From Gammaproteobacteria bacterium (lineage in GTDB: Bacteria > Pseudomonadota > Gammaproteobacteria > Pseudomonadales > Pseudohongiellaceae), in the NCBI GenBank assembly GCA_030654835.1, contig JAURWS010000003.1, positions 1-32,371 of the forward strand: a stretch of DNA of 32,371 bases, written 5' to 3'. Numbering within the stretch: the first letter of the stretch is position 1; the number at the start of each line of letters is the position of its first letter. Below the pieces are notes generated by a model. The model was not told the DNA's origin. It made no database searches and saw only the letters and a program-made list of their open reading frames with translations. The position numbers and the translations under genes were made by a program. This document shows, piece by piece, positions 1 through 32,226 of the stretch.

Positions 1-115
1 GCAGAGTCAGGAAGCGATGTTGAGCGGCGTTGATGTGCCCGGCGAGACGGGTAATCTCGTCGCTGAGCGCGGCGTTGTCTTGTGGGATAAGAGCAAGAGA
101 AGCGAGCTGTGACAT
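1..115 (-). CDS. DUF222/HNH endonuclease (13E12 family), N-terminal fragment
   Basis: Only the first 38 codons are in the window; the gene leaves at base 1. The peptide begins MSQLASLALIPQDNAAL and continues with SDEITRLAGHINAAQHRFL, matching the gene at the right end almost residue for residue. The right copy continues into a clear DUF222 domain, which identifies this one. Proteins of this family usually carry a C-terminal HNH nuclease domain, but that part is outside the window. The ATG follows AAGGAGG at good distance. Whether the gene is intact cannot be judged here. Confidence 0.75.
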   Translation of the reverse strand, partial: MSQLASLALIPQDNAALSDEITRLAGHINAAQHRFLTL

Positions 116-410
116 GAGACGATTCCTCCTTGGAAAGGCCACAAATGGGCGGTCATAAAACACTGTTTATATGTACATATTGTAGCCCTATCTCGATGAT
201 TTTGCTGCCAAATATCCCCCTATATTTTCACGAATAAATATTAATCCAGCGTAACCACCATCCACAATTCTGGCCAGAGCACTCTCAATCCGCAGATCAT
301 AAAAAGTGATGCGTTCAAAAATATCAGTGATGAGAGATTAGTGCTCATCGGCGCGCAATGCGTTGGCGAGTGCGTTCAACTTAAGGCATCGCGTTTCAAA
401 TCGACACCAA
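1..410 (-). repeat. Left copy of DUF222/HNH inverted repeat unit
   Basis: The reverse complement of this stretch aligns along its whole length with 31805-32226. By eye I count about 35 substitutions and one 12-nt gap, so identity is about 90 percent. The unit holds a leader of about 295 bp, a 12-bp palindrome ATATGTACATAT at 169-180, a Shine-Dalgarno AAGGAGG and the first 38 codons of a DUF222/HNH gene. The similarity starts at TTGG at 410 and runs out through the window edge, so the full unit is longer than seen here. Between 411 and 536 I see nothing coding. Confidence 0.9.
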
Positions 411-536
411 ATGAAATCGGCTGAAAAGCTGCGTCATAACTGGGCTTTAGCATCTGCATAATCAATTTAACCGGACACTACTGGCCTTGCTCTCCATTAA
501 CTTCAACACAACACCCTCTGGGTACGCTCCCACAGG

Positions 537-1385
537 TCATGCGGTCCATTTCCTTACATAGCCAGAGAGATACTCACTCATCAGCACAATCGCGATGATG
601 ATGAGCAGCACCGCTGCGGAGGTGTCGTAGTCATAACGGTTGATCGACGTGTTCAGCGTGGCGCCAATGCCACCCGCGCCGACGATGCCGATCACCGCCG
701 ACTCGCGAAAATTGATGTCGAGCCTGTACAGCGACAATCCGATCAGCCTCGGCATCACCTGCGGCTGCACCGCGTAGTTGATCCATTGCAGCCAGCTGGC
801 ACCTGTCGCGCGAATCGCTTCCATCGGTTCGTTCTGCGCGTCCTCGATATCTTCCGCCAGCAGCTTGGCCATGAAGCCAATCGTCGCAAACGCGAGCGTG
901 AACACGCCAGCCAGCGGGCCGAAGCCGAACATCGCCACGAACAAAATGGCGATGATGATTTCCTGAAACGTGCGCGACAGGGCGATGAGTGTGCGGCAGA
1001 AAAAATACACGGGGCGCGGTGCGATGTTGCGCGCGGCACCGAGGCCCACTGGAATCGCGAGGATGATACCGATGACAGTAGCAACGAAGGTCATCGTGAG
1101 GCTTTCGCGCAGACCCACGGCGATCTCGCCGCCGCGCGTGACGAAGTCCGGCGTGAAGAACGAGCCGACGAAATTGAGGCCGCGATCGAACCCCTGTGCG
1201 ACACGCTCCCAGTTGATGTCGACGCTGAAGTAGACGAGCACGAGGTAAGTCAGTGCCGCGAGGTTGAGCCCCCAGCGTAGCTTCGCACTGCTGATCAGTG
1301 GAAGTGGGCGCCAGCTGCCACGCTTTGCGGCGTCGATGCGCGCGTGGTCGACCTGTGAGGCAAGCGTGTTTATGGACAAACTCAC
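537..1385 (-). CDS. phnE: Phosphonate/phosphate-type ABC transporter permease (PhnE-like)
   Basis: This is a 282-residue inner-membrane permease of the binding-protein-dependent family, predicted to carry phosphonate or phosphate esters with the PhnC-like ATPase upstream. It has several hydrophobic segments, for example [12 protein letters not shown] near the start, [20 protein letters not shown] in the middle and [13 protein letters not shown] at the end. The EAA-type loop that contacts the ATPase is visible as [18 protein letters not shown], followed by GIVGAGGIG. The start is GTG at 1385, because this codon overlaps the ATPase stop as GTGA (4 nt), a classic coupled junction; a longer reading frame upstream only shadows the ATPase. 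No C-P lyase genes are nearby, so the substrate is inferred from family only. Confidence 0.88.
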
Positions 1386-2206
1386 GGATGTCCTCCGAGC
1401 AACGCCGCTTCGACATCCTTGCGTGGTTCGGTGGCCGCGTGCTCGTCTTCTTTCTGCACCGCCGTCCAATCTTCTTCGCCATAAATTGTCGTGAGAATTT
1501 CTGGCGTGAGACCGGTGGGCGGGCCGTCGTATACCACCACTCCCGCACGCAAACCAACGACACGATGCACGAACTGTTGTGCGAGCGCGACGTCGTGAAT
1601 GTTGATGATGGTGGCAAGATTTTGTTCCGCACACAGCTCGCAGATCAGCCGCATGATCTGCCGCGATGTCTTCGGATCGAGACTGGCGGTGGGTTCGTCA
1701 ACCAGCAATAGTTTTGGATTCTGCATGAGCGCACGCGCAATACCGACGCGCTGTTTCTGCCCTCCAGAGAGCGCGTCGCCGCGCTTGTCGATCATCGTTT
1801 CGAGGCCGACACGTTCAAGAATTTTGAAGGCCTGCTGAACATCGCTCTGCGGAAACTTGCGAAAAAAGCTGCGCCAGAAACCGACGTAGGCGAGGCGTCC
1901 CGACAGCACGTTCTCCATCACCGAGAGGCGTTCGACGAGCGCGTAGTTCTGGAAGATCATGCCGATCTGCCGACGCGCCTGACGTAGACGGTTGCCGCGC
2001 ACGCGCGTGATGTCTTCGCCGTCGAGATGGATGCTGCCGGCGGTGGGCTCGACGAGGCGATTGACGCAGCGTATCAGCGTGCTCTTGCCCGCGCCCGAGG
2101 GGCCGATCAGCGCCAGCACTTGACCGGCGGGCACGACGAGGTCGACGCTGTCGAGCGCGAGGTCGCCGGTGGCGTAGCGTTTGGTCAGGCCTTTCAGTGC
2201 GAGCAT
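1382..2206 (-). CDS. phnC: Phosphonate/phosphate-type ABC transporter ATP-binding protein (PhnC-like)
   Basis: This 274-residue cytoplasmic ATPase is the energy-coupling subunit of the phnDCE-type transporter. It shows Walker [10 protein letters not shown] near residue 36, a Q-loop in [20 protein letters not shown], the ABC signature [15 protein letters not shown], Walker [13 protein letters not shown] and the H-loop in [10 protein letters not shown]. The sequence [11 protein letters not shown] is a normal family start, so ATG 2206 is chosen over in-frame codons further upstream, which would read antisense-like sequence over the phnD 3' end. It lies 13 bp after the phnD stop and overlaps phnE by 4 nt, so the three are very likely one transcript. 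The C-terminal 15 residues are charged and of no known role. Confidence 0.92.
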
Positions 2207-2219
2207 GTGGGCCCCGTGT

Positions 2220-3359
2220 TCAATCGCAGTTATAAACCGTGTGCGTCGCCTCATCAATCTGCCGCACCACCGACCAGTGTTCCTGGTACGTGATCGGCAG
2301 AAACTGCTCCATCGCCGCATCGGCGAATTCACGTTGCAGCGCAGTGCCTTCCCAGTCAAACGTAAAGAATGCCTCCCGCACCTTTGCCGCGAGATCCGGG
2401 TGCAGATCGTGCGCAATGCCGTAGCCGGTGGTGGGGAAAGAGTCCGATTTGTAGATCGTCGTGTACTGCTCGGTGCGCACCACGTCGCGGGCCAGCATGC
2501 GGTACAGCACTTCGTTGGCAATCGCCGCCGCGTCGTAGTCTTTGTTCACCACGCCAAGGATCGAATTGTCGTGGCTGCCGGAGTAGGCGGTTTTGTAGTC
2601 GCGGTCCGCTACAAAACCGAATTCGGATTCGAGCAATGCCGAAGGTGCCTTGAATCCCGAATTGGAGGTCGGCGCGGTAAACGCCAGCGTGCGGCCAGCC
2701 AGATCGGGAATCGCCGCGATGCCGCTGCCGGGATACGTGATGATTTCCATCTGGTAGCCATAACTGCCGTCCTTCGCCGCCATCATCGTGAAGGGCACGA
2801 AGCCGACACAGTTCACGGCGATGGGCGTGGAGCCGGTGTTGAAGCCCGCGACATGCAGGCGCCCGGCGCGCATCGCTTCGAGCTGCGCCGCATTGGACTG
2901 CACGGGGAAGAAGCGCACTTCCTTGCCGGTGAGCGTTTCGAGATGTTGAATGAACTCGTCCCATACCTGCGAGTACATGGCCGGGTCTTCGACAGGCGTG
3001 TAGGCAAAGATGAGGATGCGCGGGTCGCGCCAGAGCGCGGGGTCGCTGGGCAGATCGGCCACGAGGTCGCCGTTGGCGTCTTGGTAGCGGGGGGAGAGTT
3101 CAATTGAGGGTTCAGCTGCGTGCAGATTTGGGAGCTGGCACAGCAGCAATGTGAGCACCAACCCCCTGTGGGAGCGGGCCTCGCCCGCGATCAGCCGCAG
3201 TGCAAAACCCGATCGCGGGCGAGGCCCGCTCCCACAAAAGCGCATCAGTGTATTAAGCAGAATTGTTGACGCGCGCGTCAGTGTCTGACGCGAAATTATT
3301 GGCAGGCGCGTCAGTGTCTTCAGCAAAATCGTCGACAGGCGTGTTGCAGTGCTCATCAT
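2220..3359 (-). CDS. phnD: Phosphonate/phosphate-type ABC transporter substrate-binding protein with REPIN-derived N-terminus
   Basis: This is the periplasmic binding protein of the transporter (PhnD family). Family sequence includes [47 protein letters not shown] and [13 protein letters not shown] hydrophobic stretch, [16 protein letters not shown] (about residues 66-81), looks like a signal peptide, with the mature protein from about AEPSIEL. The first 65 residues are abnormal: about residues 7-41 come from 33-bp tandem repeats (two copies of STILL) and residues 42-65 are a REPIN read in frame. The start at 3359 has GGGGAG six bases upstream, which supports it. Starts nearer the hydrophobic core (TTG or GTG near 3159) would leave no basic n-region. 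Export could be impaired; this is inference. Confidence 0.85.
3167..3236. repeat. REPIN (paired inverted REP palindromes) inside phnD
   Basis: A 70-bp near-perfect inverted repeat begins TGTGGGAGCGGGCCTCGCCC and ends with its reverse complement, with about 18 bases between the arms. The arm is the REP type common in Pseudomonas and relatives, which is mobilised by RAYT transposases. A second pair lies at 15609-15682 and a single half at 9309-9323. Unlike most REPINs, this one lies within an open coding frame (residues about 42-65 of the PhnD-like protein) and keeps that frame open. Confidence 0.9.
3240..3350 (-). repeat. 33-bp imperfect tandem repeat in phnD 5' region
   Basis: A unit close to GCGCGTCAGTGTCTTCAGCA plus about 13 further bases recurs. 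The CAGTG landmarks fall at 3246, 3279, 3312 and about 3347, giving steps of 33, 33 and about 35 bases. Because 33 is a multiple of three, the minus-strand frame stays open and gives repeated peptide pieces such as [11 protein letters not shown] and [11 protein letters not shown]. It sits directly between the phnD start codon and the REPIN. Confidence 0.75.
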
Positions 3360-3428
3360 GGCAGGCTCCCCGGGGAGTCATTCTGCCTGACAAGCCTGCC
3401 TGTTTGCTATCTCGTCCTGCTCAGCCGC

Positions 3429-6098
3429 TTACTCGGACTTCGGACCGTGGGGCGTCTTGCGCTTGCCCTTGTCTTTGTCCACGCGCTTGCTCTTCGCCTT
3501 CGGTTTGACCGGCTTGCCGTTCAGGCCGAGGATTGGCCGCGCGGCACGGATGCCGGGAGCCTCCATAGCCGGGAAGCGCTCCAGCACTTCGCGGGTAATG
3601 TCGGTGCTCTCGACGCCATGGAATGCGGGCTTGGCTGCCCCGTCCTTGGCGAAGGTGTCACGCTTGAAGCCGGGCTTTTTAAACTCAGCTTTCTTGAAGT
3701 CGGGCTTCTTGAAACCGGGCTTCTCATACGCGGGCTTCGCATACGCAGGCTTGCCGGACCCTTCAGTTCCGGTTTCGGACTTTGCGTAGGCTGGCTTGGC
3801 GTAGGCAGGCCTCTCATAGCCGTCCTTCTTGAATGCAGGCTTGCTGGCACCATCCTTGCGGAAGGAATCCTGCGCCGGACCGGCAGACTTGAACCCTTCC
3901 TTCTTGAAGCTGGGCTTTTCAAAGGCAGGTTTTTCGAACGCTGGCTTGTCAAACGCAGGCTTGTCGAACGAACGCTTCTCAAAAGACGGCTTGCTGAAGC
4001 CTTCCTTCTTGTAGCCATCCTTCTTCACGAAGCCTTCTTTCTTGACGAACCCCTCCTTCTTCACAAAACCTTCCTTGCTGTAGCCAGCCGGTTTCTCGAA
4101 GGCGGGCTTCGCGCTGGGGCGTTCGTATTCAGGCTTGTTCACCGGCTCGATCAGCAGCGGCTTGCTGCAGACATGCGTCCGCTTGAGAACCTGCATCACT
4201 TCGGGGGGCATGCCGCCGGGCAGGTCCACGGTGCAGTAATCGTCATAAATACGGATGTGGCCGATGTAGCGGCCTTCGATGTCAGCTTCGTTGGCAATAG
4301 CTCCGACGACTTCACGCGGCGTCACACCGTCGTTGTGGCCGACGTGGATGCGGAAGCGCTCCATCTTGATGTCCGGGTAATCGCGCAGCGGCTTGGCGCG
4401 GCCATCGTCCGCAGGCGAGTGCGGGGAGACGTAGCCGGGCGTCTGCCTTGATTCGCGGGCTTCACGCGGCGCACGCACTTCGCGTGCGCGGGGTGCCGCT
4501 TCATGTTCGTGTTCGTCTTCGGCAAGAATCTGCTCGAACAACGTGTCGGAGCTGACGCGATGCTCGCGCGCCGGTTTGGCCGGGCGGTCTTCGAACTCGT
4601 CGTTATCGTCTACAACCGGTTTGGCAGGACGCTCGACACGCGGGGCCGGAGCGGCGCGTTCGGTGCGCACAGGACGTGAGGTCGATTCTTCGCGCGAGCG
4701 ACGCGGGGCGCTGCTTTCGCGCGGCTCGCCATAGGCAAAGCCTGCACGGTCGCTGCGCGGCGATTCGTGTTCGAGCGCGGGCTCCAGCGGACGGTCTTTC
4801 TGCAGCAGATAGGCCATGGCGGCGGCGACGTGTTCGGGTGTGCATTCGTGCTCTTTCACCAGATCGGAAATCAGCTTGTGGAAGAAATCCAGCTTGCCGT
4901 TGCGGATGGTGTCGGCGATGCCTTCCTTGAACTGAGTGCTGCGCTTTTCGATCAGCTCGCCACGGGTCGGCAGCTCCATCTGGGTGATCTTCTTGCGGGT
5001 GGTCTTCTCGATGGACTGCAGCAGACGGCGCTCGCGCGGGGCCACAAACAGAATCGCCTTGCCGCTGCGACCGGCACGACCGGTGCGGCCGATGCGGTGC
5101 ACGTAGGCTTCGTCATCGTAGGGAATGTCGTAGTTCATCACGTGGCTGAGACGGTCGACGTCCAGACCTCGGGCCGCCACGTCGGTGGCGACGAGAATGT
5201 CGAGCTGGCCGTTCTTGAGCTGTTCGACGGTGCGCGAACGGATGGCCTGGTTCATGTCACCGTTCAGTGCCGACGCGGCGAAGCCACGCGCGCTAAGCTT
5301 TTCGGCCAACTCGACAGTGGCGGTCTTGGTGCGCACGAAGATCAGCATGGCGTCGAAGTCTTCCACTTCGAGGATGCGAGTCAGCGCGTCGAGCTTGCTG
5401 GTGCCCTGCACCAGCCAGTAGAACTGTTCGATGTCTTCGTTGGTGGAGATGGCGCTCTGGATGCGAATCTCCTGCGGGTCGTTCAGATACTTTTCGGCCA
5501 CCTTGCGGATGGGCGGCGGCATGGTGGCGGAGAACAGGGCCACCTGACGGGTCTTGGGCGTGTTCTCAAGAATCGACTCCACGTCGTCGATGAAGCCCAT
5601 GCGCAGCATCTCGTCGGCCTCGTCGAGCACCAGCGTGTTGAGCTTGCTCAGGTCGATGGTCTTGCGATTGAGGTGGTCGAGCAGACGGCCAGGCGTCCCG
5701 ACGACGACATGCGCGCCACGGCGCAGACCGCTGAGCTGACGCCCCATGTCCTGACCACCGTATATCGGCAGCACGTGGAAACCACGCATACCGGCGGCAT
5801 AGGTCTGGAACGCTTCGGCCACTTGAATGGCCAGTTCGCGAGTCGGACACAGCACCAGCGCCTGTGTGTGCGCCTGGCTCAGATCGATCTTCGCAAGAAT
5901 GGGGAGTGCAAAGGCCGCTGTCTTGCCGGTGCCAGTCTGCGCCATACCCACCACGTCCTTGCCTTGCAGCAGAACAGGAATGGTGGCTTGCTGGATCGGC
6001 GAGGGCTTTTCATAGCCCACCTTGCTCAGCGTTTCCTGCAGGTATTGTGGTAAATCGAGCTCAGCGAAACTGAGTTCCGGGCGTGTACTGGATGACAT
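3429..6098 (-). CDS. deaD: DEAD-box RNA helicase DeaD/CsdA with long F/Y-K-P repeat tail
   Basis: This 889-residue ATP-dependent RNA helicase unwinds structured RNA in ribosome assembly and mRNA decay, mainly in the cold in known relatives. Motifs are in order: Walker A AQTGTGKT (53-60), PTREL (85-89), GTPGR (134-138), DEAD (159-162), SAT (190-192) and HRIGRTGRAGR (334-344). A charged linker rich in Arg, Glu and Pro (about 441-575) leads to the DbpA/CsdA-type RNA-binding domain (about 579-655). Residues about 660-825 are a low-complexity tail of repeats such as FEKPA, FVKKEG and YAKPA, ending in a very basic KAKSKRVDKDKGKRK. E. coli DeaD is about 630 residues and lacks such a tail. A perfect 11-bp-arm palindrome lies about 100 bp upstream. 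Confidence 0.96.
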   Translation of the reverse strand: MSSSTRPELSFAELDLPQYLQETLSKVGYEKPSPIQQATIPVLLQGKDVVGMAQTGTGKTAAFALPILAKIDLSQAHTQALVLCPTRELAIQVAEAFQTYAAGMRGFHVLPIYGGQDMGRQLSGLRRGAHVVVGTPGRLLDHLNRKTIDLSKLNTLVLDEADEMLRMGFIDDVESILENTPKTRQVALFSATMPPPIRKVAEKYLNDPQEIRIQSAISTNEDIEQFYWLVQGTSKLDALTRILEVEDFDAMLIFVRTKTATVELAEKLSARGFAASALNGDMNQAIRSRTVEQLKNGQLDILVATDVAARGLDVDRLSHVMNYDIPYDDEAYVHRIGRTGRAGRSGKAILFVAPRERRLLQSIEKTTRKKITQMELPTRGELIEKRSTQFKEGIADTIRNGKLDFFHKLISDLVKEHECTPEHVAAAMAYLLQKDRPLEPALEHESPRSDRAGFAYGEPRESSAPRRSREESTSRPVRTERAAPAPRVERPAKPVVDDNDEFEDRPAKPAREHRVSSDTLFEQILAEDEHEHEAAPRAREVRAPREARESRQTPGYVSPHSPADDGRAKPLRDYPDIKMERFRIHVGHNDGVTPREVVGAIANEADIEGRYIGHIRIYDDYCTVDLPGGMPPEVMQVLKRTHVCSKPLLIEPVNKPEYERPSAKPAFEKPAGYSKEGFVKKEGFVKKEGFVKKDGYKKEGFSKPSFEKRSFDKPAFDKPAFEKPAFEKPSFKKEGFKSAGPAQDSFRKDGASKPAFKKDGYERPAYAKPAYAKSETGTEGSGKPAYAKPAYEKPGFKKPDFKKAEFKKPGFKRDTFAKDGAAKPAFHGVESTDITREVLERFPAMEAPGIRAARPILGLNGKPVKPKAKSKRVDKDKGKRKTPHGPKSE

Positions 6099-6193
6099 AT
6101 CGGGCCTTGTGTACTGGTGTCAGATAGAAGAGACGAACTATGACGGCTGAAACTGAATGCGGAGAGCAGCTGCAAAATCAAACGGGCGGCAAG

Positions 6194-6221
6194 TATACGC
6201 CAGAAGGCCATCTGGCGTATA
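6194..6221. promoter_or_regulatory. Perfect inverted repeat upstream of deaD
   Basis: The sequence TATACGCCAGA is followed by six bases and then its exact reverse complement TCTGGCGTATA. It lies 96-123 bp before the deaD start codon. One arm contains TATACT, a fair -10 element for the minus strand, so the site could be an operator lying over the deaD promoter or a hairpin in its leader. There is no T-tract on either side, so a simple terminator is unlikely. Nothing else is apparent between 6099 and 6326. Confidence 0.5.
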
Positions 6222-6326
6222 GCTTGGGATTTTTCGCTTGAAGCGAATCCAAACCAGCGTCGTCAATTACTGCATCATCAGCGACTCAAAAGATCGATCA
6301 CTCGACCGGATTTGGACTGATCGACT

Positions 6327-6722
6327 TCAGACGCGCAGCGTGGTTAGCAACCTAACCAATTCGTGCAGGGCGGTAAATGGCTCGGAGCCGTTGTAGGAAT
6401 TGTATTTCGCTTCCAACCCTTGCGCCCGTTGAATGGCGGTTTCCAAGCTGTCACGGGTAGTCGCAAATGCACCTCCCACGCCTTTTTCATAGCCGGGAAT
6501 GTGCTGCTTCAAACGTGCCATTACCTCGTCGCGGTGGATCGGGCGCTGAATATCCTCGAAGTGCAGCAACAGCCACAGTTCGAAACTAGGGATGGAGGCG
6601 ATGGCCTTGAAGCTGACTGGTTGCCTTTCGTCGTTGCGCAGCTTGCCATTCAGCGATTTCGCCAAACCATTGGCCGCCTTGCGGCGCAACTGCCTGTCTT
6701 TGGCTTGGTTGTCACGCCCCAT
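6327..6722 (-). CDS. RloB-like protein, truncated (TOPRIM-like half missing)
   Basis: This 131-residue protein matches the C-terminal half of RloB-family proteins: FKAIASIPSFELWLLLHFED corresponds to the family signature around S-x-P-x-FExWLLLH, followed by ARLKQHIPGYEKGVGGAF and a final HELVRLL. Complete RloB proteins are about 200-230 residues and begin with a segment containing VCEGEKTEP, thought to form a TOPRIM-like nuclease site. That segment is absent here; the protein goes from MGRDNQAKDRQLRRKAANG straight towards the FELW motif. The ATG overlaps the stop of the upstream ATPase by one base (TGATG), so the pair is translationally coupled. It could be a decayed toxin or a shortened functional version. 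Confidence 0.7.
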   Translation of the reverse strand: MGRDNQAKDRQLRRKAANGLAKSLNGKLRNDERQPVSFKAIASIPSFELWLLLHFEDIQRPIHRDEVMARLKQHIPGYEKGVGGAFATTRDSLETAIQRAQGLEAKYNSYNGSEPFTALHELVRLLTTLRV

Positions 6723-7993
6723 CAATGCTTCACTCCGAGATCCTGGTTGCGCAGGAAAGGCAGTGCGCCATAGCGCCCTTGCAGATAACCGCGCTCCAGC
6801 GCTTCATTCTTGCGCGGACTGAAATCTAGCAAAGGATACAGCGATGAACTTTGATCCGGGCGCTTTTCTACAAACCAGACCTGATCGCGTCGCAGTAGAC
6901 CGTAAGCATCAAGCAGAGAGGTGTCGTGGGTGGTGAAGATCAGCTGCGCTCCGCCAGTGTTGACTTCGGGCCGATGGAACAGCCGCACCAATGCCTGCAC
7001 CAGTCGGGTGTGCAGGCTGGTATCCAACTCATCTACCACCAGCGTCAACCCCTTGTTGAGGATGTCCAGGATCGGGCCGGTCAGGAAAAGCAGGTTGCGA
7101 GTACCACTGGACTCGTCCATTAAGTCGAACACGGCCTCGCCGTGCTCGGTTATGTGGTGGAACTTCACTTCGTCCACAGCCTCCTCGCTGGCCGTCTCCT
7201 CGCGCTTTCCTGTGGTGAGGTCGAACTTGATGGTATGCACCATGGCCTGCTTGGTGGCCACTTCGATGTCGGCAATGCTGATGTCAGCGGCATTCAGAAG
7301 CTCGCAAATCGCGTTGCGCTGCTCTTCCTTCTTCAGCATTTGCACAGAAAATTGAGGAGACGGTGGCGACTGTTCGTTGAATATCACGAGGCGATTCACG
7401 AACCAATCAAACACCGGGCGTAACGCCTCGCTGTTTAGCTGCACGGCCATGGAAAGAAATAAGGCGTTAGGTCGGGTGGCACCTTCCCACAAATTCTTTG
7501 CCCCCTTCATGTTGGAGCCAAAATCGTACACATCCTTGCCTTTTTCGGCATCAAAGTGCCGCTCAAACCACCGCTGCGGCTTGAATGCCTTGTAGACCAA
7601 AAGATGCTCGCTGACGATGCGCTGTGTTGTCATTGCAAAGCCATACTGATAGCGCACATTGTCAATGATGAGCGTAACCTCAAACTCAGTGGGAAGGGCT
7701 GAAGATGTGGCATCCAGCTTGAAAGGGTGGAGCCGGTCAAAGGTCTGCCCGGGCTGCAGGGCGGCAGACTCTAACACCACGCCACGCATATACTGCAGCG
7801 CTTTGATGAGGTTGGACTTGCCGCTGGCATTGGCGCCATACACCACGGCGCTCTTGAGCAAATGAGGGGCAGCCTTCAATCCGGTGCCCTGAGCATTGTT
7901 TTCCAGCAAGGTGTTGTCGTTGGACGCAACAAGGCTGAGAACCTGCTCGTCCCGCAGACTGCGAAAGTTTTTGATACGAAACTCGACCAGCAT
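6722..7993 (-). CDS. RloA-like AAA/ABC-type ATPase of a two-gene candidate defence system
   Basis: This 423-residue SMC/ABC-like ATPase belongs to the AAA_15/AAA_21 group that pairs with RloB or other nucleases in phage-defence loci. It begins MLVEFRIKNFRSLRDEQVLSL, typical of this group. Walker A GANASGKS is at 53-60, the signature ESSGTR at 294-299, Walker B LVVDELD near 316-322 and the H-loop TTHD at 354-357; all key residues are present. ATG 7993 is preferred because AGGG lies eight bases upstream; an in-frame GTG at 8002 would add three residues. A candidate promoter lies at 8023-8052 in very AT-rich DNA, unlike the flanking genes, which hints at transfer. It is followed directly by the truncated RloB. 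Confidence 0.87.
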   Translation of the reverse strand: MLVEFRIKNFRSLRDEQVLSLVASNDNTLLENNAQGTGLKAAPHLLKSAVVYGANASGKSNLIKALQYMRGVVLESAALQPGQTFDRLHPFKLDATSSALPTEFEVTLIIDNVRYQYGFAMTTQRIVSEHLLVYKAFKPQRWFERHFDAEKGKDVYDFGSNMKGAKNLWEGATRPNALFLSMAVQLNSEALRPVFDWFVNRLVIFNEQSPPSPQFSVQMLKKEEQRNAICELLNAADISIADIEVATKQAMVHTIKFDLTTGKREETASEEAVDEVKFHHITEHGEAVFDLMDESSGTRNLLFLTGPILDILNKGLTLVVDELDTSLHTRLVQALVRLFHRPEVNTGGAQLIFTTHDTSLLDAYGLLRRDQVWFVEKRPDQSSSLYPLLDFSPRKNEALERGYLQGRYGALPFLRNQDLGVKH

Positions 7994-8022
7994 TCCAGAC
8001 ACCCTATTTTAAAAATAAATTA

Positions 8023-8052
8023 ATAATATGCTAAAAATACGCAAATTATCAA
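8023..8052 (-). promoter_or_regulatory. Candidate sigma-70 promoter of the RloA/RloB-like pair
   Basis: On the minus strand a TTGATA hexamer (8052-8047) is followed after 18 bases by TATTAT (8028-8023), both one mismatch from consensus. The ATPase start codon lies 30 bases further on. The surrounding 80 bp are strikingly AT-rich, so chance matches are possible. Confidence 0.45.
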
Positions 8053-8116
8053 TTTATTTTATATTCAAAGTTTCTTGATAACCAGCCAGTAAGTGCCCCT
8101 TCCGCAGCCCCACAGG

Positions 8117-22539: not shown

Positions 22540-22560
22540 TTCAACCCCGGCTTACTTCTA

Positions 22561-24179: not shown

Positions 24180-24186
24180 CTATGGC

Positions 24187-24774: not shown

Positions 24775-24781
24775 ATGACAC

Positions 24782-25147: not shown

Positions 25148-25207
25148 AATCTCTCCTTCACAATTTTTTATGCGGATATTTTCCTTGTTCGATTGCTCAA
25201 GGGTAGC

Positions 25208-25681
25208 TCAACTAAATTGCTTTGACAGTTTAGTGGAAAACTTTCCAAAACCTAGTGCGGAATAGAACTTCTCAGCGCTCGCGTTGTAAGCCATTACCTC
25301 AAGGAAGGCTTCGGCAGCACCCATGCCACAACTGACAGATACAGCCGACTCCACTAGAGCCCGACCAATTCCTTGTCCTCGTGCACTTTGCTCCACAACA
25401 ATAGTGGAAATTTGGAGCTTCTTCTTCGGGACAAGATAGGATGACTTGCCGCTGTCCACTACTCGACCGGCGATGAATCCGACAGCGACATCCCCGTCTT
25501 CCGCTACCAATAGAATCCCGCGTTCATCCTTGTCAAATGCACACCAATGCTCCCAGTCACCTCCATTCCCATCCGGTTCTTTGAAGTCATTGGGCATATT
25601 TTCAAAATGCTCCTGGTTGATTTGGTCGGACAGGATACAAATCAGCTGCTTGTCTTCCGGTTTTAATTTTCTGATGATCAT
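25208..25681 (-). CDS. GNAT-family N-acetyltransferase
   Basis: This protein of about 157 residues begins MIIRKLKPEDKQLI. The acetyl-CoA motif is LQISTIVVEQSARGQGIGRALVESAV (QxxGxG/A as ARGQGIGRAL), followed by AFLEVMAYNASAEKFYSALGF, the typical end. Substrate unknown. An in-frame ATG ten codons upstream (25711) is possible but lies outside family homology. The SIS gene ends 45 bp upstream in the same direction. Confidence 0.88.
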   Translation of the reverse strand: MIIRKLKPEDKQLICILSDQINQEHFENMPNDFKEPDGNGGDWEHWCAFDKDERGILLVAEDGDVAVGFIAGRVVDSGKSSYLVPKKKLQISTIVVEQSARGQGIGRALVESAVSVSCGMGAAEAFLEVMAYNASAEKFYSALGFGKFSTKLSKQFS

Positions 25682-25726
25682 GCGTAAATCTCTAAGTGCC
25701 TCTGGTGCCAAGCCAGGCGGCGAGTC

Positions 25727-26332
25727 TCACTTTGGTTCATTGTCAGTTCTAGCGGCCCTGCCAAGATAGCCACCATGGTGCCGAAGCCCCCACTCTTCTT
25801 TAGTGAACTCTCTACTTTCCATTACTGAGATTGCGATCGCATCGCTTATCGCAAGCATCACCGCAATTGAAGACGTTGGTGTCAGTTCAAGAGGACACGC
25901 TTCTTTAGGCATCCCCATATCAAGAATATACTCGCAGTGATCCCTTAGTTCAGAGTCAGGATGTGAAGTGATGCCGATAATATGGGAAACGCCTAAATGC
26001 CGAGATAATTCTAGAATTTCTATCACCTCTCTCGACTTACCGCTCGTTGAAAAGGCAATCAACACATCGTTTGCACTCACTATTCCTAAGTCTCCATGTG
26101 CTGCTTCAGCTGCGTGTAAAAATACTGAAGGTGTGCCAGTGGAGCATAAGGTCGCTGTGAACTTGTGAGCAATGTGCCCAGCTTTGCCAATACCTGTAGT
26201 AATGACTTTCCCACTACAAGCGAGAATAGTATTCACTGCTGACTCAAAGGACTCATCCACATTTACGGATTGAATAGCTCTCGCTTCAGCTTCAAGTACT
26301 GCTTTTATTCTTTCGATTACGTTCATCTTCAA
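25727..26332 (-). CDS. SIS-domain sugar-phosphate isomerase (KdsD/GutQ-like, no CBS domains)
   Basis: This 201-residue protein is the SIS domain of arabinose-5-phosphate isomerases: VITTGIGKAGHIAHKFTATL, TPSVFLHAAEAAHGDLG, VLIAFSTSGKSREVIEIL, CPLELTPTSSIAVMLAISDAIAISVM and the end HHGGYLGR. KdsD, KpsF and GutQ are about 320-330 residues because two CBS domains follow; here the protein stops soon after the SIS domain. Stand-alone SIS versions exist. No LPS or capsule genes are nearby, so the pathway is unclear. MNVIER at 26326 is an alternative start. Confidence 0.9.
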   Translation of the reverse strand: MKMNVIERIKAVLEAEARAIQSVNVDESFESAVNTILACSGKVITTGIGKAGHIAHKFTATLCSTGTPSVFLHAAEAAHGDLGIVSANDVLIAFSTSGKSREVIEILELSRHLGVSHIIGITSHPDSELRDHCEYILDMGMPKEACPLELTPTSSIAVMLAISDAIAISVMESREFTKEEWGLRHHGGYLGRAARTDNEPK

Positions 26333-26392
26333 ACCCTAAAATGGGGGGAGAGTTACGGCTCTTTGTACCTTGCCGACCGACTATTCGTATTG

Positions 26393-27151
26393 TCAATCTG
26401 CGGAAAAGTCCGCTACAGCCAGTGCCACAAAGTCGGCCACAGCCTGGAGGTTCTCGTCCAGTGCATTGCCCTCGGCGCGGGGTAGCCCTTCAAAGGAATG
26501 ATCGCCGCCTACGACTAAAAGCCGAGTGGGAGCGCTAAGGTCTGCCATCAAACCATAGAGTATTGGCGTAGAACACAAAGGATCTGCATCTCCTTGCGCA
26601 AAGACCAGCGGACGCGTTTCCGCGGAAACGTCTGGATAGTAGTAATCGTGGATGGCAACGGGAGCTGCTCCGGCACTTTCGACCTGGCTACAGACAGGCG
26701 TAAGAAGTACCCCGCCGCGCAGAGTCCGATTGGCGCGCAACACATGCCAAGCGACGGACGATCCCAATGATTTTCCGGCCGCCCATACGCGCGAGCTGTC
26801 CACGCGACTATCCGCCACAGCCAAAGCGACTACCGTGTTCATGTCCTCAATCTCAAGCCCGAAGTCTTGGGACGGACTTCCACGTGGCGTAGCCGTGTAA
26901 TACGTCCAATCGAACCTGTAGACAGCAATGCCCTCTTCGACCAGACGCCGCGCTGTTTGCTCCAGCGCTGCGAGCCGCATGTGATAACCCTGACCGGGTG
27001 CGAGAATAACCGTGGTGAACGGACCAGCTCCGATTGGGAAATCTGCGATAACCTCAATCGTCGAGCCTCTTGGTGTTGGGATTGATACGGACTCTGCTGC
27101 TGCCGATAGGCTGCAGTGTAAAGCTAGAATTACTGTTAGAAGGCCTTTCAT
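26393..27151 (-). CDS. Secreted alpha/beta hydrolase
   Basis: This 252-residue protein has a signal peptide MKGLLTVILALHCSLSAAAES, then FTTVILAPGQGYHM (oxyanion loop region), VWAAGKSLGSSVAWHVL with nucleophile GKSLG, VFAQGDADPLCS (likely Asp) and VVGGDHSFEGLP (likely His). It resembles dienelactone-hydrolase or KANL3/Tex30-like hydrolases of unknown substrate. GAGGAG six bases before ATG 27151 fixes the start; earlier in-frame ATGs would break the signal peptide. The 277 bp upstream (27152-27428) hold nothing I recognise. Confidence 0.87.
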   Translation of the reverse strand: MKGLLTVILALHCSLSAAAESVSIPTPRGSTIEVIADFPIGAGPFTTVILAPGQGYHMRLAALEQTARRLVEEGIAVYRFDWTYYTATPRGSPSQDFGLEIEDMNTVVALAVADSRVDSSRVWAAGKSLGSSVAWHVLRANRTLRGGVLLTPVCSQVESAGAAPVAIHDYYYPDVSAETRPLVFAQGDADPLCSTPILYGLMADLSAPTRLLVVGGDHSFEGLPRAEGNALDENLQAVADFVALAVADFSAD

Positions 27152-27428
27152 GGATGCTCCTCGGAATTTCGTTTTTGTCATTAGCGTCCCTCCGTGGGTT
27201 GTCATCGCTGGAATAACACCGCGCACATGACCCTACCCCTCTTTTTCAAAAGCAGTCTGACTTATCAGCTTCACGATGCCCACTTGCTGACGCTGGAAAG
27301 CCGATGACATGGTTAGGCAATATTTTCCAGCAATCTTGGCAACTCCTGAATGTTCAGAATTATAGCGTCACACATTACTGGTTCAGGGACGAACTCATTT
27401 CTTATCAATGCACGCTCCTTGTAGATCG

Positions 27429-28055
27429 CTAAGCTTTGAGATTAGGGACGCACAACGGCGGCACATACTTTGTCAAGCCGTCTAGCTTTTTACCAACGGG
27501 GACAAACAGCCAGCCGAGCGTGTTAGCAGCGACGGCATCCCAATGTCCGTCGCCATAATACGAAATGGTGTCGAAGACGCCATTCAGTTGCCCGAGCGCA
27601 CGCAACATTATTTGCGGCCTCTCGAAATGATCATCAGAGCTGGCTAGCGGAACGCCGTCCACCGGGAATCCTGCGAGTGACAGCTTTAGCAATGCGGACC
27701 CGCCCCAACCGCCGGTCGCGTACGCAATTCGATGCGTGGTCGATGTGTGCAGACTCTGCACATATGCCAGCGCGCCCGGAATCTCGGCGAATGGTCCGTG
27801 CTCGGACATGTGACGGCGTACTCCTTCGACAAAGCTGCCTCGTACCGCAGCTACTCTCTCAGGTGTTGCCTCCAAATCGTTGTCACGCAGTATTTCGGCC
27901 AAGATACCAGCAGCGGTAAATTGGGTATACATCCCCCAGGATGGACGTAATTTGACATCGCCAAGTGCATCGCGGATTGACTCCAGGTACATCGCGTCGT
28001 CGCTCGCGTCGGACTGGAGGAGGGTGCCATCTATGTCGAAGATCGCTGCTTGCAT
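27429..28055 (-). CDS. HAD-superfamily hydrolase
   Basis: This 208-residue phosphatase-like protein begins AIFDIDGTLLQSD (motif I DxDGT), has a helical cap domain, YATGGWGG around motif II and YYGDGHWDAVAANTLGW as motif IV. The usual motif III Lys is not obvious; SSDDHFERPQIML offers only an Arg. Substrate cannot be told. The FGE-like gene ends 21 bp upstream in the same direction. Confidence 0.9.
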   Translation of the reverse strand: MQAAIFDIDGTLLQSDASDDAMYLESIRDALGDVKLRPSWGMYTQFTAAGILAEILRDNDLEATPERVAAVRGSFVEGVRRHMSEHGPFAEIPGALAYVQSLHTSTTHRIAYATGGWGGSALLKLSLAGFPVDGVPLASSDDHFERPQIMLRALGQLNGVFDTISYYGDGHWDAVAANTLGWLFVPVGKKLDGLTKYVPPLCVPNLKA

Positions 28056-28076
28056 AACCCTAATTATTCTCCCACT

Positions 28077-28817
28077 TTATGGGTCCATCACTAATCTAAA
28101 GCCAGTATCCTGAGTAGGTCTTCTGGACATCTGTCGGGCGCGTTTCCAGAATACAAGGTCGTCAGCACCATCATCCCAAGAGCCACCTCGCACGACGCCA
28201 AGTTGACAATGAATTCCACTTTCATCCTTTGGATCATCCCCGAAGTAGCAATCAGCAGTCCATTCCCATACATTGCCGTGCATGTCGTAAACTCCGAGTA
28301 GGCTGGGTTCAAAACTACCGACAGGCGCTGTCATTCGCGCGTCCCATTCGCTTCCACAGTTCCGACAATTTGCCCTGCCGTGTTCATACTCCGTGCCCCA
28401 GCTGTAATTAAATCCCAATTCAGTATTTAACTTTGCAACGTATTCCCATTCCGCGTCCGTGGGCAGGCGATATCGTTTTCCGGTTTTGTCACTAAGCCAT
28501 TCCGCATAGGCAACCGCATCAAACCAGTTGACGTCAATCACGGGCCTATTATCTCTTCCAAACCCAGCATCGTTTCGAGTGGCTCGCGCAGTTTCGTTAG
28601 TGAAAATATCGTATTCCAGGAACGTGATTTCGTACTGACTTATCAGAAAGTGACCTAAACATACCTCTCGCAATGGACTTGACTGCGAATCCATCAGCAA
28701 CGTGCCCACCTCAGCACAACCCTCGGGTATATGGACCATTTTGGGCTCGATTTGTGCGGCAACATTTGCCGTATATGCAAAAGCAAAAATTGATACCAGA
28801 ATCGAAACTCTAGACAT
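28077..28817 (-). CDS. Secreted SUMF1/FGE-fold protein, probably not a formylglycine enzyme
   Basis: This 246-residue protein has a signal peptide (SILVSIFAFAYTANVAAQ) and an FGE-sulfatase fold: MVHIPEGCAEVGT, FLISQYEITFLEYDIF, PVIDVNWFDAVAYAEWLSDK, RLPTDAEWEYVAKL, YDMHGNVWEWTADCY, VVRGGSW and DTGFRLV. True formylglycine-generating enzymes have two copper-binding Cys soon after RGGS; here that region reads DDGADDLVFWKRARQMSRR with none, so catalysis is unlikely. The fold is also used for ligand binding and other oxidation chemistry. No sulfatase is nearby. Confidence 0.9.
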   Translation of the reverse strand: MSRVSILVSIFAFAYTANVAAQIEPKMVHIPEGCAEVGTLLMDSQSSPLREVCLGHFLISQYEITFLEYDIFTNETARATRNDAGFGRDNRPVIDVNWFDAVAYAEWLSDKTGKRYRLPTDAEWEYVAKLNTELGFNYSWGTEYEHGRANCRNCGSEWDARMTAPVGSFEPSLLGVYDMHGNVWEWTADCYFGDDPKDESGIHCQLGVVRGGSWDDGADDLVFWKRARQMSRRPTQDTGFRLVMDP

Positions 28818-28974
28818 CGGTTACCTCAACATTCGTATAGGTTGTTTAGCGTGCATGCGCGAAATTTTAAGATAGCGATGGAGTATCCCACCGAATTCGT
28901 GGCATTTCAATAGTGCTCAATTCATTGTGCGCCGGGTGATTCTTGATCAGTAGAATGTGCCATTTGAGTGCCAA

Positions 28975-29235
28975 TCAGGTACGGTTATTCGCAAACTTTT
29001 GGCACCCTGCCGGTTTAAATATGCGCTTATTTGAAGCCGGATTAGCGGCAAGCTTGACGGTCGGACGCCGAGGACGTGCAACCAGCTCACCGCCGCAATT
29101 TGGACAAATCCCCCCAAGCACGCTCTCTGAGCACGATCTACAAAAAGTACATTCAAAGGAGCAGATTCGCGCTTCGAGCGACTCTGGGGGAAGATCTTTG
29201 TCGCAACACTCACAATTTGGTCTGAGTTCTAGCAC
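28975..29235 (-). CDS. DUF1272 zinc-ribbon protein
   Basis: This 86-residue protein begins LELRPNCECCDKDLPPES, then ARICSFECTFCRSCSE and CPNCGGELVARPRRP, the full set of Cys pairs of DUF1272. Zinc binding is expected; function unknown. GGGAGG a few bases upstream supports the start. A short C-terminal tail (KLAANPASNKRIFKPAGCQK) goes beyond the usual family end. Confidence 0.9.
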   Translation of the reverse strand: MLELRPNCECCDKDLPPESLEARICSFECTFCRSCSESVLGGICPNCGGELVARPRRPTVKLAANPASNKRIFKPAGCQKFANNRT

Positions 29236-29339
29236 ATGGCCTCCCTATTGAGGATGTATAGCATTGCCATAGTGTGCAAGCACGCATCCCTATAGCGTTA
29301 GCAGGAATCTAACCCAGACCCCGCCGCGAAAACAGGAAT

Positions 29340-29966
29340 TTAATCGTTGTCGTCGTCGTTGCCATCACTATCCCAGTCATCATCATTCCAATCTCGGTCC
29401 TCAGAATTGTCTGCCTCATCATCGCCGTAGAATCCGTCGCGATCGTCGTCGCTATCCCACTCCCCATCGTGGTCGCCATCACCACCGACTGTGGCTGAGC
29501 TGGAATATACGGCATCCGTATCCAGCAGGCCCGCAAAGCCGTTATACCAGTCGTCTGTGTCGGAAGGATCACCTCCTGCTCGTACCAATATCAATGCCAG
29601 TTGGTAGGACCCCTCGGCCAGAGTCGCAGTGCTTACCGTGTCGAGGAAAAACAAGCGAGAGCTCGTAAATGTAGAGTAGTCGTCAATTTTTACTTTGCTG
29701 GCCGTTTGACTCTGGTCATACGCAACCACATAAGCCTCGACACCTTGACTTTTGAGTAGCGCGGTATCGCCTCCAAAACTAATGCGAACATCAAGGGTAT
29801 CGCCCGGGTAGTAAATATGCTTCACGGTTTCAATTTTACCGCTCAGATAGCTCGCGTCATTGGTTAGATTGTAGGATTCATCATTGTCGGCGAGCGAGAT
29901 TGTGGCGCTGAATATTGCACCGATCAGAGCACTGAAACTGGCGAGCTGTTTATATGGGATCTTCAT
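29340..29966 (-). CDS. Secreted protein with Asp-rich tail, unknown
   Basis: This 208-residue protein has a signal peptide (MKIPYKQLASFSALIGAIFSATISLA), a probable beta-sandwich domain (YYPGDTLDVRISFGG, AYVVAYDQSQ, GSYQLALILVRAGGD) and a C-terminal 45 residues that are more than half Asp/Glu, for example DGDHDGEWDSDDDRDGFYGD. The DxDxDG patterns resemble EF-hand-like or thrombospondin type 3 calcium sites, so Ca2+ binding is plausible. AGGAG eight bases before ATG 29966 fixes the start. A CRP-like palindrome lies 99-120 bp upstream. I do not recognise a family. Confidence 0.75.
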   Translation of the reverse strand: MKIPYKQLASFSALIGAIFSATISLADNDESYNLTNDASYLSGKIETVKHIYYPGDTLDVRISFGGDTALLKSQGVEAYVVAYDQSQTASKVKIDDYSTFTSSRLFFLDTVSTATLAEGSYQLALILVRAGGDPSDTDDWYNGFAGLLDTDAVYSSSATVGGDGDHDGEWDSDDDRDGFYGDDEADNSEDRDWNDDDWDSDGNDDDND

Positions 29967-30064
29967 ATTTTCCACTCCTGTCATTGGTTAAGTGACTTGA
30001 AGCGTGATCCCCGAAAATTAACGGATTCTTAAGCGCAATGCGATGTGCATCCGCCAATCTCCAA

Positions 30065-30086
30065 TAACGTGATGTAGATCACGTTA
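30065..30086. promoter_or_regulatory. Candidate CRP/Vfr-type binding site
   Basis: TAACGTGAT-GTAG-ATCACGTTA is a perfect 22-bp palindrome that contains GTGA-N6-TCAC, the core of CRP sites; consensus has T where this has C before GTGA. It lies about 100 bp upstream of the Asp-rich protein gene, just after the GNAT stop. An intrinsic terminator is less likely, since no T-tract follows on the minus strand. Confidence 0.55.
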
Positions 30087-30087
30087 C

Positions 30088-30627
30088 CTATCTTTCATTC
30101 TGCATCCTTGGCGTGGGAATTATGGAGTACAAAAAACAATCTCGGGGCTCTCCTCGAACTATTCTCAAGTTCCGGAGTTTGCCTTCCTGGCGAAACCCAC
30201 ATTTTTCGAGCACCCGCATAGAAGCAACATTCGTGTCCAGTACACAGGCTTGTATCCTGAAAAAACCACGGATGGAATGCCCCCAATTCACAATGCCCTT
30301 GCCGACTTCTGTGGCAATACCTCTTCCCCAGAACGAAGGATGAATATCGTAGGCCAGCTCAGCCGAAAGGTTAGCAGAAGACAGAGTGTGAAACCCAATT
30401 GTGCCCACCAGATTGTCGCTGACCTTGTCGACGATTGCGAAACGGATCGGAGATTCAGCTTCGTTTGCCAGGTAGCTCATGACCAATTTTTGGAGATCAT
30501 TCTCGGAAGATAAGTTCCAGCTTGTGTGCTCGATAACGCTGGGAATAGAGAGGTACGAGTACCATGCGGGCACATCGGAAAGTCGGATAGGTCTTACATA
30601 GACATCGGCAGTGTCAAAGAGTGGCAT
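30088..30627 (-). CDS. RimJ/RimL-type GNAT N-acetyltransferase
   Basis: This protein of about 179 residues begins MPLFDTADVYVRPIRLSDVPAWYSYL and has RFAIVDKVSDNLVGTIGFHTL, AYDIHPSFWGRGIATEVGKGIV (acetyl-CoA loop) and ACVLDTNVASMRVLEKCGFRQEGKLRN, all typical of ribosomal-protein-type acetyltransferases, many with other targets. ATG 30627 is preferred because GGAAG lies about ten bases upstream; ATGs at 30636 and 30648 are in frame. The 30649-30847 stretch upstream contains nothing coding that I can support. Confidence 0.88.
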   Translation of the reverse strand: MPLFDTADVYVRPIRLSDVPAWYSYLSIPSVIEHTSWNLSSENDLQKLVMSYLANEAESPIRFAIVDKVSDNLVGTIGFHTLSSANLSAELAYDIHPSFWGRGIATEVGKGIVNWGHSIRGFFRIQACVLDTNVASMRVLEKCGFRQEGKLRNLRIVRGEPRDCFLYSIIPTPRMQNER

Positions 30628-30847
30628 GGCGATCATTCTTCCTATCATGTTTGGGGGAATCTAACCCGGAATCCACTCAGAAGACAATTGATTGCTTAAT
30701 ACTGTGCGACGGGAGGTGACTGCCATAGCGCTAACCGTCCGCAGTGTGATACACGCGCAATCCGAATCTGCTCTCCGTTCAAATTTCACCGCTCCATAAA
30801 TCTGTCCTATTACTTGATCAGGGCTATCGAACAGGGAGGTTTACAGG

Positions 30848-30898
30848 ATGAGTCACTTTCAGACGCTATCACTTAGTGATAGCATTCGACATGAGTAG
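30848..30898 (+). CDS. Candidate leader peptide overlapping hicA start
   Basis: A 16-codon frame, MSHFQTLSLSDSIRHE, has a strong GGGAGG eight bases before its ATG, whereas hicA itself has no visible Shine-Dalgarno. Its stop TAG ends at 30898, five bases inside hicA (ATG at 30891), so ribosomes finishing the leader could restart on hicA. The operator-like palindrome lies within this frame. Confidence 0.4.
   Translation: MSHFQTLSLSDSIRHE
30866..30882. promoter_or_regulatory. Candidate HicB operator
   Basis: CTATCAC-TTA-GTGATAG is a perfect 17-bp palindrome lying 8-25 bases before the hicA start. HicB antitoxins with DNA-binding tails repress their own operons at such palindromes, so this is a likely autoregulatory site. 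Confidence 0.55.
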
Positions 30899-31136
30899 CG
30901 CACAGCGCAGGATACTGGCGCTGATTCTCGCGGGCATCGCCCCGTCGTCACTTGAGTGGCGAAAGGTGGAGGCCTTGCTGCTGGCTCTAGGGGCGAAAAG
31001 TGTTGAAGGGCGAGGCTCCCGCGTGCGATTTGAGCTGAACGGTGTCGTAGCAGCTTTTCACAAGCCGCATCCGGGAAAGGAAATCAAAGCCTACCAAATC
31101 AAAATCGTCAGAGACTTTTATATGAATCTGGAATAG
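30891..31136 (+). CDS. hicA: HicA-family toxin
   Basis: This 81-residue mRNA interferase-type toxin of a type II toxin-antitoxin pair has LEWRKVEALLLALGAKSVEGRGSRVRFELNG followed by AAFHKPHPGKEIKAYQIKIVRDF, the common HicA pattern with FHxPHPG. The catalytic His of E. coli HicA (GSHH) is replaced by Arg in GSRV, as in many members of this branch. ATG 30891 is chosen by length; a GTG at 30876 is in frame. hicB starts 4 bp after its stop. Confidence 0.88.
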   Translation: MSSAQRRILALILAGIAPSSLEWRKVEALLLALGAKSVEGRGSRVRFELNGVVAAFHKPHPGKEIKAYQIKIVRDFYMNLE

Positions 31137-31140
31137 CACT

Positions 31141-31470
31141 ATGAACATCATGCACTACAAGGGCTACTCGGCCCCCATCGAATACAGCGATGAAGATCAA
31201 TGCCTGGTAGGTCGTCTGGCTGGTATTGACGATCTGATAGGCTTTCACGCGGACTCCGTCACAGAACTCAGGAAGGAGTTTGAAGAGGCGGTGGACGACT
31301 ACCTGGAAGCGTGCGAGAAGCTGAATCGCAAGCCACAGCGTCCATATTCTGGGAAGTTGATGCTAAGAATTGACCCCGTCCTTCATGCTAAGGCTGCTGC
31401 GCGTGCCGAGGCTGAGAGCAAGAGTCTTAATGCGTGGGCACAGGAGGCTCTGCAGCGCGCGACGTCCTGA
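31141..31470 (+). CDS. hicB: HicB-family antitoxin
   Basis: This 109-residue antitoxin starts MNIMHYKGYSAPIEYSDEDQCLVGRLAGIDDLIGFHADS, the HicB partial RNase-H-like fold, then ELRKEFEEAVDDYLEACEKL. The C-terminal LMLRIDPVLHAKAAARAEAESKSLNAWAQEAL is a ribbon-helix-helix DNA-binding part that would bind the palindrome at 30866-30882. It follows hicA by 4 bp. Confidence 0.92.
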   Translation: MNIMHYKGYSAPIEYSDEDQCLVGRLAGIDDLIGFHADSVTELRKEFEEAVDDYLEACEKLNRKPQRPYSGKLMLRIDPVLHAKAAARAEAESKSLNAWAQEALQRATS

Positions 31471-31558
31471 TTCGATCTCTCTCCCGGGTTGAGTGGTGCT
31501 GCACAAACCTTCTAGCAGGATATTATCAGACCTCAAGCATACTGATCTCAGGTACTTC

Positions 31559-31819
31559 ATGACACATCACATCCTGACCGACATCTCCGCCAGCATCTCC
31601 GAGCTGAAGGCTAACTCTATGAAAGTCGTCGCTCGCGGAGAAGGCATGCCCGTTCTCGTTCTAAACAGGAATGAACCAGCCTTTTACTGCGTTCCCGCGA
31701 AAGCCTATGAAGCATTGATGAATCTCGTCGAGGACACGGAGCTTTTGGCTCTCGCCAATGGCCGCATGGACGAAGAAAGTATAAAAATTTACGTCAACGA
31801 TCTATTGGCGTCGATTTGA
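31559..31819 (+). CDS. Phd/YefM (StbD-like) antitoxin, orphan
   Basis: This 86-residue protein begins MTHHILTDISASISELKANSMKVV and continues VLVLNRNEPAFYCVPAKAYEALM, a clear Phd/YefM/StbD antitoxin. Relatives end soon after a motif like the IKIYVNDL seen here, with a RelE/ParE toxin gene following. Here four extra residues (LASI) and the stop come from the start of the DUF222 repeat at 31805, and no toxin follows. The upstream hicAB pair is a separate module. It probably lost its toxin when the repeat arrived. Confidence 0.82.
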   Translation: MTHHILTDISASISELKANSMKVVARGEGMPVLVLNRNEPAFYCVPAKAYEALMNLVEDTELLALANGRMDEESIKIYVNDLLASI

Positions 31820-32226
31820 AACGCGATGCCTTAAATTGAACGCACTCGTCAACGCATTGCTCACCGTGGCAGCGGGCGAGGAGCACCAATCTCTCATCAC
31901 TGATATTTTTGAACGCATCACTTTTTATGATCTGCGGATTGAGAGCGCTCTGACCCGAATTGTGGATGGCGGCTACGCTTGATTAATATTTATTCGTTAA
32001 AATCTAGGTGGATATTTAGCAGCAAAATCATCTAGATAGGGCTATAATATGTACATATAAATAGTGCTTTATGACCATCCGTTTGTGGCCTTTCCAAGGA
32101 GGAATCGTCTCATGTCACAGCCCTCTTCTCTCGCTCTCATCCCTGCAGACAACGCTGCGCTCAGCGACGAGATTACCCGTCTCGCCGGGCACATCAACGC
32201 CGCCCAACATCGCTTCCTGACACTGC
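31805..32226 (+). repeat. Right copy of DUF222/HNH inverted repeat unit
   Basis: This is the inverted partner of 1-410, with 12 additional bases near 31867-31885. Its non-coding part (31820-32111) contains TATAAT at 32043-32048 overlapping the ATATGTACATAT palindrome (32047-32058). From 31836 a frame LNALVNALLTVAAGEEHQSLI runs to 31982; the left copy has TAA where this one has CAA, and the length difference is a multiple of three, so this part may be a decayed coding remnant. Confidence 0.9.
32043..32058 (+). promoter_or_regulatory. Promoter -10 with overlapping palindrome before DUF222 gene
   Basis: A perfect -10 hexamer TATAAT overlaps ATATGTACATAT, a 12-bp palindrome found at the same place in the left copy (where the -10 reads TACAAT). 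No good -35 at the right spacing is visible. The palindrome could be a repressor site. Confidence 0.4.

Follow-up and report, generated by a model that had tools for sequence, protein, structure and literature searches.

Why should a single contig begin and end with inverted copies of the same gene-bearing repeat? The question is raised by a stretch of 32,371 nucleotides (the window) from a gammaproteobacterium of the family Pseudohongiellaceae (NCBI GenBank assembly GCA_030654835.1, contig JAURWS010000003.1), which is one entire contig, G000:C47:1-32371, of a 60-contig, 3.84-Mb draft genome. At both ends of the window lies the start of a gene for a DUF222/HNH protein, and an earlier sequence-only reading took the 31 kb between them for an enclosed segment whose interior might invert. 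We conclude, with a probability of roughly 87%, that the repeats represent a non-autonomous transposon of about 2.0 kb, hereafter the cassette, which has the ends of an ISPosp4-like insertion sequence (IS) of the IS4 family, no transposase, and a DUF222/HNH gene with its own promoter.

The left copy (1..483, reverse strand) is the upstream part of a cassette and comprises the terminal inverted repeat CAGTAGTGTCCGGTTAA (467..483, reverse strand), an IS-derived 5' end, a leader, a promoter and the 5' part of the DUF222/HNH coding sequence (1..115, reverse strand; family assigned through PF02720 in other copies), the remainder being lost at the contig end. The right copy (31805..32371, forward strand) begins 73 nt inside the element and is without these outermost nucleotides and their inverted repeat; its leader, promoter and gene start (coding sequence 32112..32371, forward strand) again run to the contig end. 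Both copies have a promoter-like -10 element with a palindrome and a ribosome-binding-site-like AGGAGG, and in both the DUF222 gene is oriented outward. The inverted arms pair 1-350 with 31877-32226 and 349-410 with 31805-31866, each at 92% identity, and the left copy shows 89% identity over the full length of the 422-bp query (E = 2e-160, hence above chance). Two inverted, outward-facing copies with leader, promoter and palindrome had been described from the sequence, and at 89-92% identity that description holds; the unit is larger than the 410-422 bp first recognized, as the left copy extends to its inverted-repeat end at 483.

A search of the genome with the 422-bp probe gave 24 matches and confirmed the suspicion of a dispersed family. 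The repeat covers 33 of the 120 contig ends, counting an end as inside the repeat when a match starts no more than 20 nt from the edge. One further end, the 34th, is the start of C39, where the repeat begins 118 nt in. Sorted by the side kept, the 34 ends are 17 upstream and 17 downstream halves. Among their flanks, compared over 110 nt beyond the element, no pair had a match of 100 nt or more and one pair had a shorter match; seventeen halves of each kind with distinct flanks put the copy number of the genome at 17 or more, and not one copy is assembled through with both flanks. An additional diverged copy (70% identity) is internal to contig C22. Most copies in the genome diverge by 7-15% from the element model, and part of the amplification predates the split between G000 and G004, the closest relative examined, because several sites are common to both genomes. 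A cluster of 93 contig ends was also considered as one family and rejected, because short palindromes and other repeats link its members. The copies are terminal in the window because the assembly stops inside them, most probably since it could not cross them, and the apparent enclosure of 31 kb is the draft assembly breaking at each copy: a clear example of a draft-assembly edge mistaken for an element boundary.

The insertion site of the left copy can be followed on both sides. The cassette lies between two transporter genes, one on C47 and the next on contig C50. The gene on C47 encodes an ABC-transporter permease (537..1634, reverse strand) and adjoins the gene for a phosphonate-binding protein; its downstream neighbour in relatives is the gene after the cassette on C50. 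In eight of eight same-genus relatives examined (of 13), the permease gene is followed by the C50 gene, no more than 153 nt from the match end. The target-site duplication GAGCAAGGC (484..492, reverse strand) has its second copy on C50 directly after the right inverted repeat, agreeing at nine of nine bases. Joining the flanks with a single GAGCAAGGC gives an alignment to the relative G008 that has no gap at the site; G008 therefore holds a clean empty site. The duplication and the empty site together bear out the proposal that the repeat moves as a unit including its leader, and the empty sites sought in related genomes exist at least for this copy. For a second pair, C39/C25, the duplication agrees at seven of nine bases and both flanks are on one G008 contig without the element; the G008 locus differs around the site, so that it records absence rather than a clean empty site. 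Five of nine left flanks have AT immediately before the left repeat, and by eye they otherwise have no common target motif. Upstream of the empty site, G008 contig C13 (L273) carries a separate palindromic insertion, GAGCCTGCTCGCGATT...CGCGAGCAGGCTCG. Other contig ends of G000 are linked by short palindromic repeats, which may or may not be related to the G008 palindrome.

The element model, a composite of copies with homology limits set by flank comparison, is 2006 bp long. In complete copies, homology stops upstream at CAGTAGTGTCCGGTTAAATTG... and downstream at ...CCGGACACTAGTG. A pattern for the terminus, allowing up to two mismatches, gave 12 matches in the genome, all 12 at element ends (seven left, five right), against three for a control pattern. 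The model contains the leader, the DUF222/HNH gene and a transposase remnant of about 42 residues, and no transposase gene. Variable modules lie between the nuclease gene and the remnant (element model 1781-1870, for example at the start of contig C19); one reads GIKANLESYIQGFSRDAW, which is perhaps reminiscent of a type I methylase (HsdM) and had no Pfam match. No Rfam family reached the gathering threshold in the window for the leader as a structured RNA, and a weak, below-cut-off match of a leader reading frame to Permuted_GreAB-C is not believed.

The origin of these ends is indicated by the right-end open reading frame, which in the composite encodes ...YTLLQILSVSVFEKIPLNKAFLDV...NQLNLFNY. 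In a plasmid collection it matched four records (best E 5e-5); two carry an IS4 transposase annotation, and that of ISPosp4 is one of these. The frame is 54.8% identical to the C-terminus of the ISPosp4 transposase over 42 of 42 residues (E 2e-3). The left end of ISPosp4 has the identical 19-nt terminus, and that element is flanked by a 9-bp duplication, AGATTCGAT. End alignments between the cassette and ISPosp4 scored 101 on the left and 114 on the right, against maxima of 55 and 63 in 300 shuffles. Terminus and transposase C-terminus are thus both homologous to those of an annotated IS4 element. In G051, a genome of the same family, a related transposase C-terminus adjoins a related terminus. 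At G051:C9 (L302), positions 1293-1940, an open frame has an apparent fusion to the IS4-type C-terminus beside the same kind of terminal repeat; the N-terminal part of the fused frame is presumably IS1380-like.

The cassette's gene encodes a protein with DUF222 (E 2e-24) and HNH (E 5.8e-5) domains in Pfam, and the motif CRFPGC...DAHHV...CRHHH is intact in 20 of 20 listed copies of the family with the IS shell whose frame reaches it. Among 17 open copies chosen from three genomes, broken copies being excluded, 123 of 136 pairs overlapped enough to be compared; the ratio of nonsynonymous to synonymous divergence (dN/dS) had a median of 0.116 and a range of 0.067-0.187, with median dN 0.052 and dS 0.431. 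By these substitution ratios the gene is under purifying selection. Among the broken copies, L279 and L284 are frameshifted, C6 has an internal deletion and the C22 copy is truncated. The gene sequences also carry a signal of recombination between copies: the test statistic was 0.539, against a null of 0.584 (standard deviation 0.013), with one of 2000 permutations as low (12 copies, 807 nt, 114 informative sites). An AlphaFold model had a mean predicted local distance difference test score of 36.8, too poor for a fold search, and phmmer found no PDB relative at E 0.1 or better. A scan for defence systems gave a weak 18-residue PADLOC match (E 0.0038). As to carriage by viruses, there was no match in viral_contigs, and there is one unverified phage record at 34% identity.

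DUF222 matches occur in six of the 14 genus genomes, G000 included. Those found in G004 and in G008 are of the shell type. G001 has two DUF222 matches and G005 five, and at six loci there the gene and a related promoter are present with no match to the IS ends, which indicates that presence of the gene in the genus predates its capture or is independent of it. These shell-free copies were considered as a sign of self-mobility, and the idea was dropped, as their divergence makes the edges uninformative.

The operator site at the -10 element reads ATGTACATATAAACAG in the left copy (163..178, reverse strand) and ATGTACATATAAATAG in the right copy (32049..32064, forward strand), the conserved site being (A/C)TGTAnATATAaACAG. 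It was compared with the LexA consensus CTGTATATATATACAG. At the conserved place, 29 of 32 copies (36 rows minus three duplicates and one promoterless fragment) have at least 12 of the 16 consensus bases, as against 10 of 700 mononucleotide shuffles; those below this level are C39, C6 and L279. The sequence CTGTATTCATATACAG, perfect at the fixed positions, occurs in two of the most diverged related copies, one from G005 and one from G001, and no other site in G005 matches CTGTAT-N4-ATACAG perfectly; G000 has no perfect CTGTAT-N4-ATACAG. A uvrA-like gene of G000 (named by eye) has CTGTATATTGTTACAG 66 nt upstream, and this type of box therefore fits the genome. The first C of the conserved site is replaced by A in 14 of 14 G000 copies, so repression in this genome may be weak or lost. 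In sequence the operator is LexA-box-like, shared by relatives and somewhat eroded in G000. Outside the relatives, a host-type SOS box stands upstream in one of four loci. This is a Rhodococcus homologue (35% identity), where TCGAACGTACATTCGA starts 47 nt upstream of the annotated start and matches 11 of 12 bases of the mycobacterial consensus as given in a section of PMC4181829, a score reached by 3 of 20000 shuffles. Upstream SOS boxes are absent from the other three loci, two from Arthrobacter and one from a phage; one Arthrobacter locus has two 10/12 sites, both downstream of the match, and the remaining two loci have none. The same section of PMC4181829 places some of the 10 HNH genes of the 13E12 family of M. 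tuberculosis in a hypothetical LexA-controlled repair system.

Taken together, these observations suggest that the two ends of an ISPosp4-like IS4-family element came to enclose a DUF222/HNH gene in the transposase's place. An IS4 transposase, probably no longer intact in G000, would have inserted the copies in trans, and these would later have exchanged sequence by homologous recombination; the gene may be, or may once have been, LexA-repressed and induced by DNA damage. Several results weigh against this account. An exact duplication with a clean empty site was demonstrated for one copy only. The inverted repeat is kept, with up to two mismatches, at 7 of 17 upstream and 5 of 17 downstream junctions, and because most junctions have no recognisable inverted repeat, many copies must be truncated or rearranged. 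Searching the 14 genus genomes with the G051 C-terminal query found no intact cognate transposase; the matches were a broken IS4-type gene of G000 and the remnant in two element copies, with no other. Mobilisation of the cassette in trans is therefore inferred. None of the 12 terminus matches in G000 belongs to an autonomous IS with the same ends, and the sole IS4-type gene found, at about G000:C30:87000-88000 (L304), is broken. Finally, third codon positions diverge more than the IS ends, 0.186 against 0.057 among seven copies with the left end and enough of the gene, and 0.231 against 0.082 among nine copies with the right end, in an alignment anchored on one reference that may favour similar ends. 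Simple duplication of the entire cassette would not account for this gap; exchange of gene sequence between copies is its likeliest cause.

The strongest rival makes the DUF222/HNH protein the agent of spread: as a nuclease induced in the SOS response it would cut DNA and be copied into the break, or drive gene conversion between copies, with the IS ends as an accidental passenger. Purifying selection among the open copies, the recombination signal between them, the six G001 and G005 loci without the shell and the apparently younger age of the IS ends relative to the gene are all in its favour, as is the account, in a passage of PMC13061034, of REP13E12 loci in M. tuberculosis as gene-conversion hot spots. 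The target duplication, the inverted repeats and the transposase remnant, however, fit DDE transposition; beyond the AT seen before five of nine left repeats no common target motif is visible by eye, and the G001 and G005 copies are so diverged that their edges may reflect only lost similarity in non-coding flanks. We regard spread by the nuclease as improbable.

Much less likely still is that the 31-kb interior moves or inverts as one unit between the two copies. Apart from the inverted copies themselves, what speaks for it is a 3578-bp contig of G004, C165 (L279), in which the upstream flank of the C16 copy is joined to the downstream flank of the C50 copy without a matching duplication, as recombination between copies would do. 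That contig reflects either recombination between two copies or a chimera, being a 3.6-kb metagenome contig, and inversion was not observed in the contigs compared, which include no long reads. We reject the enclosed segment because the window's ends are contig ends cut at repeats; moreover, the left copy is flanked by a target duplication of its own and continues into the C50 gene. The first 6 kb are in the same order in relatives. Ten interior proteins were scanned (a phosphonate-binding protein, a DeaD-type helicase, an AAA ATPase, a DUF5916 protein, an M28 peptidase, a PD40 protein, RsgA, an EamA transporter, an esterase and a hydrolase), and none suggests a mobile segment; the 31 kb is ordinary chromosome. 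At its far end, the gene for a Phd/YefM-type antitoxin (31493..31819, forward strand) adjoins the right copy, and the truncated cassette provides its final four codons and stop (31805-31819). The weakest alternative, old duplications of a DUF222 paralogue with no mobile element, has the shell-free genes of G001 and G005 and the 7-15% divergence of most G000 copies on its side, but it is contradicted by flanks that share no 100 nt beyond the element, by sharp ends with inverted repeats and, for the window's left copy, by the empty site and 9-bp duplication, and we consider it very improbable.

Three known systems come closest to the cassette. To ISPosp4, an IS4-family element on a plasmid of Polaromonas sp. 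JS666, it is akin in the 19-nt left terminus, the 9-bp duplication, the left subterminal sequence and the transposase C-terminus, and differs in that ISPosp4 encodes a transposase. An IS4 shell without a transposase gives it the architecture of a mobile insertion cassette. IS231 is itself a member of the IS4 family. MIC231 of Bacillus cereus and others, as treated in part of PMC3913671, likewise combine IS-type inverted repeats, a target duplication and a passenger gene with the lack of a transposase gene, and MIC231 is described there as movable in trans by the IS231A transposase. Unlike such elements, the present cassette has a DUF222/HNH passenger with a LexA-box-like operator, retains a fragment of the transposase C-terminus and is present in at least 17 copies in a genome where no intact cognate transposase was found. 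The terms 'HNH endonuclease' and 'mobile insertion cassette' do co-occur in one paper, a review of fosfomycin resistance, and DUF222 together with 'inverted repeat' was not found in the open literature of PubMed Central (PMC).

The kinship with the REP13E12 repeats of mycobacteria, which had been proposed from the sequence, stands at the level of protein domains (DUF222 with HNH); we know of no IS4 shell for REP13E12, for which no search of mycobacterial genomes was made, and the cassette's host belongs to a different phylum. Sections of PMC10589994 and PMC13061034 describe in that family the same kind of protein, multiple copies and recombination between them, and the latter, a 2026 preprint, presents DUF222/HNH genes in the section cited as multi-copy, prone to gene conversion and without defined function. 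It is conceivable, if doubtful, that in Gammaproteobacteria and mycobacteria alike these proteins are DNA-damage-induced nucleases that promote recombination among their own scattered copies; here the gene would have been captured by IS4 ends, the ends would insert, and the nuclease would keep the copies exchanging sequence. If true, this would explain why purifying selection acts in so many copies despite third codon positions that diverge far more than the IS ends. Compared with REP13E12, the DUF222/HNH gene is carried here by a vehicle whose mechanism can be read, known from both an occupied and an empty site and in a non-mycobacterial host, and both its dispersal and its induction are open to laboratory testing.

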